Positions 31,155 through 33,999 of a DNA stretch of 64,000 bases are shown here, piece after piece. The notes beneath the pieces were generated by a model, which was not told the origin of the DNA, searched no databases, and saw only the letters and a list, made by a program, of their open reading frames with translations. This DNA is from Saprospiraceae bacterium. Lineage in GTDB: Bacteria > Bacteroidota > Bacteroidia > Chitinophagales > Saprospiraceae. Within the stretch, counting starts at the first letter, position 1, and each line of letters opens with the position of its first letter. The stretch lies in assembly GCA_028284395.1 (NCBI GenBank), contig JANQRV010000339.1, forward strand, positions 1-64,000, in the 5' to 3' direction. The translations under genes were made by a program, and so were the position numbers.

Positions 31155-31261
31155 TCTTGTAAGCCAAATAGTATTTCTCCTTTCTAATCTTTTTTTGCAT
31201 TCCTGGAAAAAAATCACAGATTCTATTGTCTAATGGTCAAACAATAGAATGTAACTTACTT

Positions 31262-31870
31262 GTGGTTAAATTCAAGAGATTGGAATTACAACTGAAATCA
31301 ACTGATGCCGCTTTACTTCTAAAGGCACGTCAGGGAGACCGACTGGCCTTTAGGGACTTGGTAAATAGGCATCAACAGCAGGTAAGGACAACGGTATACT
31401 CAATGTTGGGTGATACCGCTGAAGTGGATGACGTAGCGCAAGAGGTTTTTGTTCGGTTCTATCGAAGTATGAGTGATTTTCGGGAAGAGGCAAAATTGTC
31501 GACCTATTTGACGCGAATCGCAATCAATCTCTCTTTGAATGAATTGAAAAGACGGCAGCGAAAACAGAGGATCTTACCTTTGTTTTGGCAGGCCGGGGAG
31601 GGCAGTGAAGAAGTGATGGAAATCGAAGACCACTCGATGGGGCCCGGCCGATTTGACTTGGATGACTTGATTCGGAAGAGCCTACGGTATTTGTCTCCGG
31701 AGTATCGGGCAGTTGTTGTGCTGAGGCTAGTCGAAGGTTATTCCGTGGCGGATGCGGCAGAAATATTGGACTTGCCCCAGGGGACGATTGCCTCTCGGTT
31801 GGCAAGAGCGCAGAAGAAACTTAAAGGGATCATTGAACGGTGGGAACAGGATGAAAAAACTAAGAATTAA
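31262..31870 (+). CDS. ECF-type RNA polymerase sigma factor
   Basis: The protein has sigma region 2 (DRLAFRDLVNRHQQQVRTTVYSMLGDTAEVDDVAQEVFVRFYRSM) and region 4 (LSPEYRAVVVLRLVEGYSVADAAEILDLPQGTIASRLARAQKKLK). The start is unsure: no ATG fits, and GTG at 31262 or TTG at 31226 are the options; I use GTG. It is followed after 10 bases by a membrane anti-sigma candidate and then by a CnrX/Spy-like gene, an arrangement like the CnrH-CnrY-CnrX metal-responsive system. The target promoters are not identifiable here. Confidence 0.88.
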   Translation: MVKFKRLELQLKSTDAALLLKARQGDRLAFRDLVNRHQQQVRTTVYSMLGDTAEVDDVAQEVFVRFYRSMSDFREEAKLSTYLTRIAINLSLNELKRRQRKQRILPLFWQAGEGSEEVMEIEDHSMGPGRFDLDDLIRKSLRYLSPEYRAVVVLRLVEGYSVADAAEILDLPQGTIASRLARAQKKLKGIIERWEQDEKTKN

Positions 31871-31880
31871 ATGATGAATT

Positions 31881-32279
31881 ATGGATAAAGAAGCTTTACT
31901 GGAGCTGCTGATTTTTTCGCTGGATAATGAACTACCAGCCCAACAAAAGCTTCAATTGGAAAAGGCTTTACAGGAACAACCCTGGCTTCGTAAAGAAAAG
32001 CAAGTGCTGTTGCAATTGCGCGCCGGTTTGGCGAGGGTTTCCGCGCCTCCAAGTGAAAGCTTTACCGATGCAGTCATGGCCGATTTGGGGAAAAGTGAAG
32101 AGTTGCGGCATAGCATTATCGTCCGTCTTTTCCCTAAGGTAGCTGCAGCCTGTGCTGTCTTTTTACTAGCCTTTATTCTAAATGTTTACTTTTCGGATGG
32201 GAGCATCTCTATGGATTCAGTAATTGGAGTAGCAGATCTCTCTCCGGAGGAGGCATATTCATTACTTCTTGAAGAATAG
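31881..32279 (+). CDS. Probable membrane anti-sigma factor
   Basis: The 132-residue protein has a soluble N-terminal helical region (DKEALLELLIFSLDNELPAQQKLQLEKALQEQPW), one membrane helix at about 85-105 (KVAAACAVFLLAFILNVYF) and a short periplasmic tail rich in acidic residues. Its N-terminus lacks the zinc HCC motif of ZAS proteins. Position between the sigma gene and a periplasmic-sensor gene, with spacers of 10 and 5 bases, argues that it holds the sigma factor at the membrane. This is inferred from context and topology, not from a motif. Confidence 0.72.
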   Translation: MDKEALLELLIFSLDNELPAQQKLQLEKALQEQPWLRKEKQVLLQLRAGLARVSAPPSESFTDAVMADLGKSEELRHSIIVRLFPKVAAACAVFLLAFILNVYFSDGSISMDSVIGVADLSPEEAYSLLLEE

Positions 32280-32284
32280 TCAAA

Positions 32285-32716
32285 ATGAATGCATTAAAGA
32301 CAATATTAGCGATGGTAGGCCTGATATTAATTGGTTTCTTTACCGGCTTTTTTACCCATCGTCAGATGACCATCAATCGGATTGAAAAGATCGCTGACAT
32401 GACACGCGGTCCGGGATTCAATCGTCAATTGCTTGATAAACTGGAAGTTACATCGGATCAGAGGGTGCTCTTGGAGCCAATTGTACAGGATTATGGGAAG
32501 CGGCTCGGCGCACTTCATCGGGAATCAAGACAACATCGGAAAGAAGTGATAGATTCCTTGCATGCTGCACTTAAACCTCATCTCACCCCTGAGCAGACCA
32601 AACGACTGAATAGTTTTTCGAAGCGATTTCGAGGGAAACCACCTAAAGGTTGGAAGGCCGGCCCTAGATATGACCAAACATTAAAAAGGCAGCGCCGGGA
32701 AAAAAAAGACACCTGA
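32285..32716 (+). CDS. Membrane-anchored Spy/CnrX-like periplasmic sensor
   Basis: The 143-residue protein has an N-terminal membrane anchor (about residues 5-25, TILAMVGLILIGFFTGFF) and a helical periplasmic domain with two LTxxQ-like sites: LEVTSDQRVLLEPIVQDYGK and LTPEQTKRL. This is the fold of Spy/CpxP and of the metal sensors CnrX and ZraP. By analogy it may sense metal or misfolded protein and release the sigma factor through the anti-sigma protein encoded upstream (inference). The basic C-terminal tail is unusual. It lies 5 bases after the anti-sigma gene. Confidence 0.75.
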   Translation: MNALKTILAMVGLILIGFFTGFFTHRQMTINRIEKIADMTRGPGFNRQLLDKLEVTSDQRVLLEPIVQDYGKRLGALHRESRQHRKEVIDSLHAALKPHLTPEQTKRLNSFSKRFRGKPPKGWKAGPRYDQTLKRQRREKKDT

Positions 32717-32787
32717 TCTTGTCTCACTGATATCAGACCATAATTACGGTTCTCGTTTTCTATTTTTTAACCATTAAATCAAGAACA

Positions 32788-33999
32788 ATGACCAGATTTA
32801 ATATAGCCATTCTAGTCGCCCTACTATTCCTGTCTGTTGAGCTTCTGCACGGACAGCGCGGTCCCAAACATCACCGTGATAAAGGATTTGCCCTCGGACA
32901 AATTGATCACTTGAAAGAGGATCTACAACTGACGGAGGCGCAAGTCGCAGAAATAGAGATCGTCAAACAGGATCTTGACGAAAAATTGAAAGCCTTGAAA
33001 GACCAGGAATTTGAAAGCCACGAAGATCGTCGGGATGCTTTCAAAACCATCAGAACTGAATTGAAAACAGCTTTGGATAACCTATTGACGGAGGAGCAAA
33101 AGGCGCTGCTCGAGGAAAAAAGGAAGGAACGTTCCGAACATTTCAGGAAAGGTCGGGGAATGAAGGATAAAGAAGAATTGGGAAAAGCACTCAAGGAATA
33201 CCATGATCAGAATATCCAGCCCGCCCTTTTGGCAGAAAGGGCCAAGTTGGAGGAAAAGATTTCTGAAGAAGACCAAGCCACTTTGGTTTCCCTGCGGGAA
33301 CAGTTGAAAGACTTGAAGCGCAAAGGTAGACGGCCCCACAAAAAGGATATGCACCCGCGAAGGTCCGAAAGGGAAATGAGAGGCCATTCAGAATTATCCG
33401 ATGAGCAGAAAAGTGCGTTGGCAGCTTTGAAAGACCTAACCGAAAAATATAATTCCGAAATCGAAGTTCATTTATCCAACCTACAGGGGCAAAGAGAAAA
33501 GTGGGCGGAGGAAATGAAGCAAATCCGGAGCTCTTTTATCGAGGATCACCGCAGATCCAACGAACTTAAAGAAGATAGAGAAAAACCCAGCCAATTTGAG
33601 GGAAGAAGACGCCAGGGAATAGGAATGGAAGGGCGGCGGGAGTTGGAAGGAAGAAGAGGAGAGCATTCCAAGAGGCGATTTCTGTTGTTAGCGCCCGTTG
33701 GAGAAGTACTTCCGGACCCGACTAAAAAGACTGCCGTCTTTAACCAGGTAAATGTCTTTCCCAATCCTTCTGCATTTTCCAATACTTTGAACTACCATAT
33801 GCAAGAGGCTGGAAAGATACGCGTTGAATTGCGCCGGGAGAGTGGGGGACTGGTGAAAGTGTTATTGGATGATTATCGTGAGGTTGGAAAACATCAACTG
33901 GAAGTGGATTTTGCCGGCTTGAATGATGGTGTATACTACATTACCTTGATTGATGCACAGGGAATGGCTATTTCGGAGAAAGTGATCATCTCTAAATAA
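32788..33999 (+). CDS. Secreted Spy/LTxxQ-repeat protein with T9SS sorting domain
   Basis: After a signal peptide (MTRFNIAILVALLFLSVELLHGQ) this 403-residue protein has several long charged helices with LTxxQ motifs: LQLTEAQVAEIE, LLTEEQKALLE and LSDEQKSALAAL, as in Spy and CpxP chaperones but repeated. A lysine- and arginine-rich linker follows, and the last 85 residues form a type IX secretion sorting domain (VNVFPNPSAFSNTLNY and a final GMAISEKVIISK strand). It would be exported to the surface. It follows the sigma/anti-sigma/sensor trio by 71 bases and could be their output. Confidence 0.85.
   Translation: MTRFNIAILVALLFLSVELLHGQRGPKHHRDKGFALGQIDHLKEDLQLTEAQVAEIEIVKQDLDEKLKALKDQEFESHEDRRDAFKTIRTELKTALDNLLTEEQKALLEEKRKERSEHFRKGRGMKDKEELGKALKEYHDQNIQPALLAERAKLEEKISEEDQATLVSLREQLKDLKRKGRRPHKKDMHPRRSEREMRGHSELSDEQKSALAALKDLTEKYNSEIEVHLSNLQGQREKWAEEMKQIRSSFIEDHRRSNELKEDREKPSQFEGRRRQGIGMEGRRELEGRRGEHSKRRFLLLAPVGEVLPDPTKKTAVFNQVNVFPNPSAFSNTLNYHMQEAGKIRVELRRESGGLVKVLLDDYREVGKHQLEVDFAGLNDGVYYITLIDAQGMAISEKVIISK

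Follow-up and report, generated by a model that had tools for sequence, protein, structure and literature searches.

Of the published extracytoplasmic function (ECF) sigma systems, the CirY/CirZ-Spy operon of Phocaeicola vulgatus is the closest relative that we found for the locus studied here; its ECF sigma, anti-sigma and Spy-like genes are reported to share one transcript (PMC13114119). According to this report, loss of the anti-sigma gene cirZ by deletion increases expression of the sigma gene, of spy and of two genes further downstream, one of which has a LysM domain, CirY/CirZ-Spy is induced more than 130-fold in colitis, and a second sigma/anti-sigma-Spy locus of P. vulgatus adjoins SusC/D (PMC13114119). 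In the CnrYXH system of Cupriavidus metallidurans, the genes are described in the order Y-X-H, with the sigma gene last, and CnrH as driving a target operon in addition to its own (PMC4803752); CnrY is classified as a class II anti-sigma factor (PMC7406223) and CnrX is reported to require the conserved metal ligand Met123 (PMC7689651). The locus analyzed here consists of four plus-strand genes, named SIG, ANTI, SENS and OUT, at positions 31262-33999 of a 64,000-nt stretch of DNA from a Saprospiraceae bacterium (the window). The original prediction, made from the letters of the window, had proposed a sigma factor, an anti-sigma factor, a membrane-anchored LTxxQ protein and a Spy-like protein tagged for the type IX secretion system (T9SS), and gene coordinates, profiles and conservation confirm the gene positions and support these roles. 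As judged from sequence, we consider it quite probable that the module is an autoregulated stress circuit for cell-envelope proteins.

The order SIG-ANTI-SENS is conserved in most loci inspected. In a set of 150 genomes of the same family, ANTI as a single query (E 0.001 or better) retrieved 21 genomes, our own included, and the loci of the other 20 were all fetched. The trio is kept in 19 of these 21 loci (the window and 18 of the 20 others), while L043 and L044 (L denotes loci, G genomes and C contigs) hold weak paralogues only. An ANTI profile found 19 of the 150 genomes at E 6.4e-32 or better, with 8.4e-11 as the best value of the remainder. The flanks of the module vary among the family loci. 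OUT directly follows SENS in 12 of the 19 module loci, window included; in L036 a short OUT-like gene stands between the two, full-length OUT is unlinked to the module in G014, G054 and G101, and G072, G097, G099 and G120 have the module with no OUT found. A scan of public genomes with a sigma alignment confirmed 272 stretches, 80 of which were kept as named loci (14 of them repeat family genomes, and some are near-identical). They come from Saprospiraceae, including Phaeodactylibacter, Lewinella and Flavilitoribacter nigricans, from other Bacteroidota and, by record title, from KSB1, Zixibacteria, Calditrichota, Latescibacterota, Fibrobacteria, Ignavibacteriales, Aminicenantes and Acidobacteria; most of the records are metagenome bins, whose titles may err. 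The trio is complete in 72 of the 80, five loci are cut by contig ends and three are incomplete (L234, L261, L274). The close form of ANTI is scattered rather than universal in the phylum, as judged from a phylum-wide search in which 18 of 395 genomes gave a match at E 1e-8, in most cases a partial one. Since the order is conserved across loci, the gene set represents more than chance. An accidental neighbourhood of an unrelated sigma pair and LTxxQ genes could point to OUT, which is not adjacent in 7 of the 19 family module loci and exists without the module, but it is already contradicted by the conservation of order and promoter across phyla, and we find it scarcely credible.

We also found that one promoter type precedes both SIG and OUT, a feature which the original prediction had not included; its dependence on SIG is predicted from sequence. 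The element GGAAAA-N17-GTCTAA lies before SIG in 18 of the 19 family loci at no more than one mismatch (13 exact). None of the 19 fits a spacing of 10-14 or 19-24, and neighbouring spacings share matches owing to an A run. Boxes with GGAA and GTC are typical of ECF promoters. Of the 66 named loci outside the family genomes, 43 carry GGAAWA-N17-GTCWAA exactly and 56 within one mismatch, as against a mean of 0.0 exact and 0.34 within one mismatch over 50 rounds of block shuffles. As for OUT, six of the 12 adjacent genes carry the element at no more than one mismatch and two more at two mismatches; for two of those lacking it, at distances of 6 and 24 nt from the end of SENS, transcription together with the operon is possible. 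The unlinked OUT of G054 has an exact element. In 52 of the 80 named loci an open reading frame (ORF) of at least 95 aa is present within 360 nt after SENS, and 35 of these 52 match the OUT profile; the element stands before 23 of the 35 OUT-like frames vs. 2 of the 17 that are not OUT-like. Among OUT-like genes of genomes without a close module, it was found at no more than one mismatch in none of 14 (L152-L165; L149, cut by its contig, was left out). The proposed trio of sigma factor, anti-sigma factor and membrane-anchored LTxxQ sensor is supported, as is a T9SS-tagged Spy-like output, which lies behind the same type of promoter. A perfect 10-nt inverted repeat (31220-31229, ATTCTATTGT, and 31241-31250, ACAATAGAAT, 11 nt apart) straddles the -10 box of the sigma promoter, and inspection by eye showed no counterpart in the relatives.

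SIG contains Sigma70_r2 (67.7 bits) and Sigma70_r4_2 (50.9 bits) domains, both above the Pfam cut-offs, and no sigma3 family in its Pfam listing, as is characteristic for ECF (group 4) factors. Compared with solved chains, it matched 6in7 (E 7e-36), SigW (2e-34), RpoE (1.6e-31) and CnrH (2.5e-17), and is by sequence far nearer AlgU/SigW/RpoE than CnrH; 6in7 we take to be AlgU, although the entry itself is titled sigma-H. ANTI matched no Pfam family, and its NCBIfam anti-sigma matches all fell under the cut-off. A 19-row ANTI profile matched the anti-sigma domain of RsiW (5wuq_C, E 4.6e-5) over positions 3-76 of 134, with no CnrY chain among the five matches listed, and at the profile level the N-terminal part of ANTI resembles a class I anti-sigma domain. 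Relatives of ANTI have a transmembrane helix near residue 86. Of 76 ANTI relatives, none contains the zinc motif HxxxCxxC, and 54 retain a D/E/N-x-hydrophobic-x-G motif in the short tail. A kinship with CnrYXH, which the original prediction had implied, is not borne out: ANTI is class I-like, SIG is nearer AlgU/SigW/RpoE than CnrH, and SENS lacks a conserved metal ligand.

SENS starts with a membrane helix followed by a helical periplasmic domain (AlphaFold2 model from 51 rows, mean predicted local distance difference test score [pLDDT] 89.4). The GxxxG motif of the membrane helix is kept nearly throughout (of the 51 rows, 50 have G17 and all have G21); a single LTxxQ copy is strict (LTPEQ), the further ones being degenerate, and Q59 and Q104 are located at helix starts. 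The best Pfam match is Metal_resist, at a sub-threshold 19.0 bits (cut-off 29.2), and no conserved His, Cys or Met column was found in alignments of 69 and 51 rows. The periplasmic part (51-row profile) aligns with domain 1 of OUT over 71 columns at an hhalign probability of 98.1%, vs. 0.1 for the control against the OUT sorting domain; on this profile evidence, the two regions are homologous. One may ask if SENS is instead only a co-transcribed periplasmic chaperone, with ANTI controlled by regulated proteolysis as RseA/RsiW are. ANTI does resemble RsiW, which is cut by proteases, but its tail is short and conserved. The co-transcribed Spy of P. vulgatus is described as a chaperone and not as a sensor in the corresponding report (PMC13114119), but SENS is a fixed third gene, as seen from the 72 complete trios among the 80 named loci, and stays membrane-anchored, with a near-invariant G17 and G21, while further LTxxQ outputs follow separately. 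Hence, we consider a chaperone-only SENS unlikely.

OUT combines a hydrophobic leader, helical parts with two strict LTxxQ copies (LTEAQ, LTEEQ; the others are degenerate) and a terminal beta-sandwich (model pLDDT 79.1). It scores 15.9 bits against PF07813 (LTXXQ/Spy), under the cut-off of 24.3, a relative in L096 scores 25.1, and an OUT profile matches Spy (3oeo) with E 2.4e-4. The C-terminal domain is above the TIGR04183 cut-off (24.8 vs. 23 bits) and under that of PF18962 (24.7 vs. 27 bits); it aligns with the Porphyromonas gingivalis PorU chain 6za2 (VIA-align Z 9.7, root-mean-square deviation 2.4, 86 aligned), a score similar to that of many unrelated beta-sandwiches. Fold-search matches of the whole protein were dominated by the beta-sandwich, so that its helical part was barely probed. 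The same genome carries the T9SS translocon gene sprA (SprA 2404.6 bits), which together with the sorting domain suggests that OUT is a T9SS type A cargo predicted to be secreted to the surface. In the literature searched we found no published account of a T9SS-exported Spy protein, which is no proof of absence. Two Spy domains in tandem are not claimed, as residues 32-122 and 123-265 align poorly (hhalign 27.3%). A His-rich stretch, KHHRDK, follows the signal peptide of OUT (about 32851-32890), with at least two His there in 13 of 18 OUT relatives. Short Spy-only copies without a sorting domain precede full OUT in G103 (L036, a 117-aa ORF) and G014 (L148:894-1280), each with its own promoter element.

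The predicted regulon extends beyond the locus. In the 19 module genomes, the 16-base form of the promoter pattern occurs at no more than one mismatch in 51 sites vs. 14 for the reversed pattern. Its 13 exact sites comprise seven in the module, two before LTxxQ-type genes (own contig C235; C57 of G054), three before genes for outer-membrane beta-barrel proteins (own contig C130, G120, G073) and one inside an ORF. The beta-barrel gene, coding for about 950 aa with PF14905 and a CarboxypepD_reg-like domain, was searched in the 19 module and 20 module-free genomes; orthologues were required to have at least 45% identity with the 5' side present, and the element was scored before the gene or before an LTxxQ-type gene preceding it. 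In the own genome the beta-barrel gene is divided between contigs C130 and C45, its upstream side being read from the inspection of the promoter sites, and G020 holds the 3' part only. We observed the element (no more than one mismatch) at the orthologue in 10 of 13 module genomes (G000, G001, G014, G037, G054, G057, G061, G089, G097, G120) vs. none of four module-free ones (G006, G016, G023, G060; p about 0.015, one-sided). In both groups alike, the beta-barrel gene often has an LTxxQ-type gene directly in front of it, and a second beta-barrel copy in G054 lacks the element.

Other occurrences of the element are listed here as side observations. It stands, with one mismatch to the 16-base form, before Porphyromonas-type peptidyl-arginine deiminase genes (PF04371) with leader-like starts in G054 and G057 (L120:728-1954, L129:2074-3423). 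In G101 it precedes another, distant sigma-like gene, named from a look at its sequence (L102:2338-2877), so that a cascade is possible. No exact element stands near a third LTXXQ-like gene that the own genome carries (L003/L116, G000:C313). In a Zixibacteria bin the element lies before an efflux operon of OEP, HlyD and ATP-binding cassette (ABC) genes directly after the module (L247:7576-11334). The Calditrichota locus L262 encodes an LTxxQ-type protein with a sorting tail and a TonB receptor; given this locus, the surface output may be older than the Saprospiraceae family.

The envelope circuit with a surface output put forward in the original prediction is partly supported and appears wider than first seen, with further LTxxQ genes and the beta-barrel protein in the predicted regulon, whereas its metal variant is not favoured over misfolded envelope protein as the signal. 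A metal-stress circuit in the manner of CnrYXH, in which SENS would bind a transition metal and OUT would be a surface metal binder, shares the same three roles, with an anti-sigma tail that is short and an LTxxQ-type sensor anchored in the membrane, has Metal_resist as the best, if sub-threshold, Pfam match of SENS, and can draw on the His residues just past the signal peptide of OUT and on some modules of other phyla that adjoin efflux genes (HlyD and AcrB in L248; OEP, HlyD and ABC in L247; HlyD in L264). Yet, SENS conserves no His, Cys or Met column, ANTI and SIG match classes other than those of CnrY and CnrH, no metal efflux gene was seen among the predicted targets of the own genome, and E. 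coli Spy is also His-rich near its N-terminus. We regard the metal circuit as quite improbable.

Several observations weigh against an envelope-protein circuit as we read it. The fold search with SENS gave no confident structural match, with neither Spy nor CnrX among the matches listed, and against PDB sequences its profile ranked apolipoprotein A-I above Spy (0.086), a ranking that we ascribe to helix composition. Six of the 12 adjacent OUT genes lack the promoter element at no more than one mismatch. Fifteen genomes that lack a close module also contain OUT-like genes (E 1e-50 or better), so OUT is not module-dependent everywhere; one of these genomes, G033, has a divergent module beside its OUT-like gene. 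The beta-barrel gene lacks the element in the module genomes G030, G090 and G099. The bare 12-base pattern was hardly enriched in the module genomes (58 sites vs. 45 reversed and 29 at N12) and, showing no useful excess over the controls, was dropped as a genome-wide regulon finder; therefore, we relied on the 16-base form and on the orthologue tests. Finally, many one-mismatch sites of the 16-base form fall within ORFs, and of the 60 non-module sites inspected (L075-L115, L117-L135) many do so or stand in front of unrelated genes; a single site is therefore little proof.

From gene order, homology, the shared promoter, the likeness of sensor and output, the T9SS tag and the T9SS gene, all read from sequence, we infer how the envelope-protein circuit might bind, sense, feed back and display its product. 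At rest, the class I-like domain of ANTI would retain SIG at the inner membrane, and SENS, anchored beside ANTI by its GxxxG helix, would contact the tail or transmembrane helix of ANTI and lock it. Misfolded envelope proteins, likely those of the outer membrane, would occupy the Spy-like domain of SENS, upon which ANTI would release SIG. Free SIG would direct RNA polymerase to GGAAWA-N17-GTCWAA promoters, i.e., those of SIG-ANTI-SENS, OUT, other Spy-like LTxxQ genes and the outer-membrane beta-barrel protein. As output and sensor are homologous, the rising Spy-like protein could then soak up the signal and thereby turn the circuit off; the main output of this Saprospiraceae family bears a T9SS tag, and its predicted place of action is the cell surface. 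The raised sigma and spy expression upon loss of the P. vulgatus anti-sigma gene supports this scheme by analogy (PMC13114119).

The features of the locus are collected in Table 1. Intergenic gaps are 10 nt (SIG/ANTI), 5 nt (ANTI/SENS) and 71 nt (SENS/OUT). The ORF list offers TTG 31226 as an alternative start of SIG, which is unlikely since it falls within the promoter element 31205-31233. Upstream of the module a run of ATP synthase genes presumably ends, and the downstream neighbour is, we assume, a convergent aspartyl-tRNA synthetase-like gene.

Table 1. Genes, predicted promoters and OUT domains of the module (positions in the window).
Feature	Position	Strand	Remarks
SIG, ECF sigma factor	31262..31870	+	start GTG 31262 or TTG 31280; about 196-202 aa
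ANTI, membrane anti-sigma factor	31881..32279	+	132 aa; class I-like cytoplasmic domain without zinc motif, one transmembrane helix, ~28-aa conserved tail
SENS, membrane-anchored Spy-like putative co-sensor	32285..32716	+	143 aa; GxxxG in transmembrane helix
OUT, predicted secreted Spy-like protein with T9SS type A sorting domain	32788..33999	+	403 aa
Predicted SIG-dependent promoter of sigma operon	31205..31233	+	GGAAAA-N17-GTCTAA, exact match
Predicted SIG-dependent promoter of OUT	32698..32726	+	GGAAAA-N17-GTCTCA, one mismatch; overlaps SENS end
OUT residues 32-122, Spy-like helical domain with LTEAQ and LTEEQ	32881..33153	+	hhalign to SENS 98.1%; helices in model
OUT residues 314-403, C-terminal beta-sandwich sorting domain	33727..33996	+	structure match to 6za2

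How Bacteroidetes watch over their envelope is poorly known, as only 6% of their ECF factors are reported to adjoin class I anti-sigma genes (PMC7406223). Tentatively, the module could represent a system for envelope stress that is ancient in Bacteroidota and neighbouring phyla, with one Spy-like copy gating the anti-sigma factor at the inner membrane and a second, made under the sigma factor, being sent outside by the T9SS in this Saprospiraceae family. If so, a surface-displayed Spy chaperone would guard the outer face of the cell and titrate the signal. At the sequence level, the module points to a Spy-type chaperone that would act on the cell surface, and its conserved trio, readable promoter and short target list render the regulon testable.

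As for the known systems, RpoE-RseA and SigW-RsiW provide some of the nearest solved sigma chains and, in RsiW, the nearest anti-sigma domain; unlike these systems, ANTI has no zinc motif and a short periplasmic tail, and we know of no Spy-like third gene in them. With Spy/CpxP (LTXXQ, PF07813), OUT shares the LTxxQ motifs and the Spy profile match, but its additional helices and T9SS sorting domain set it apart, and SENS is membrane-anchored. In F. psychrophilum, a separate ECF motif is reported to be linked with T9SS genes (PMC9723704).

The three roles of sigma factor, small membrane anti-sigma factor and membrane-anchored periplasmic sensor recur in CnrYXH, as does the driving of own operon and target by the sigma factor, which for SIG is read from promoter sequence. 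Of the order of roles once ascribed to the module, that of CnrH-CnrY-CnrX, the roles agree but the order does not, since cnr is described as Y-X-H (PMC4803752) and the window and its relatives place sigma first. In addition, SENS lacks the conserved Met or His ligand, CnrX being reported to have a Met one (PMC7689651), and ANTI matches class I RsiW whereas CnrY is assigned to class II, a comparison made through class descriptions (PMC7406223); the output of CnrYXH is resistance-nodulation-division (RND) efflux. By its sequence, the module probably works like CnrYXH, but we do not file it as a member, as gene order, metal ligand and sigma branch differ and the kind of anti-sigma factor probably does too. 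In turn, the targets downstream of CirY/CirZ are described as acting on peptidoglycan, while those predicted for the module include a beta-barrel protein, and the main text of that report does not use the words "transmembrane", "T9SS" or "promoter motif", so that an anchored sensor, a tagged output and a motif are not described there in those terms (PMC13114119). The Bacteroidales locus L225 has a LysM gene downstream, as in CirY/CirZ-Spy. Compared by description, the likeness to this operon, for which we claim no membership, is one of arrangement: in both, the genes follow the order sigma, anti-sigma, Spy-like (PMC13114119).

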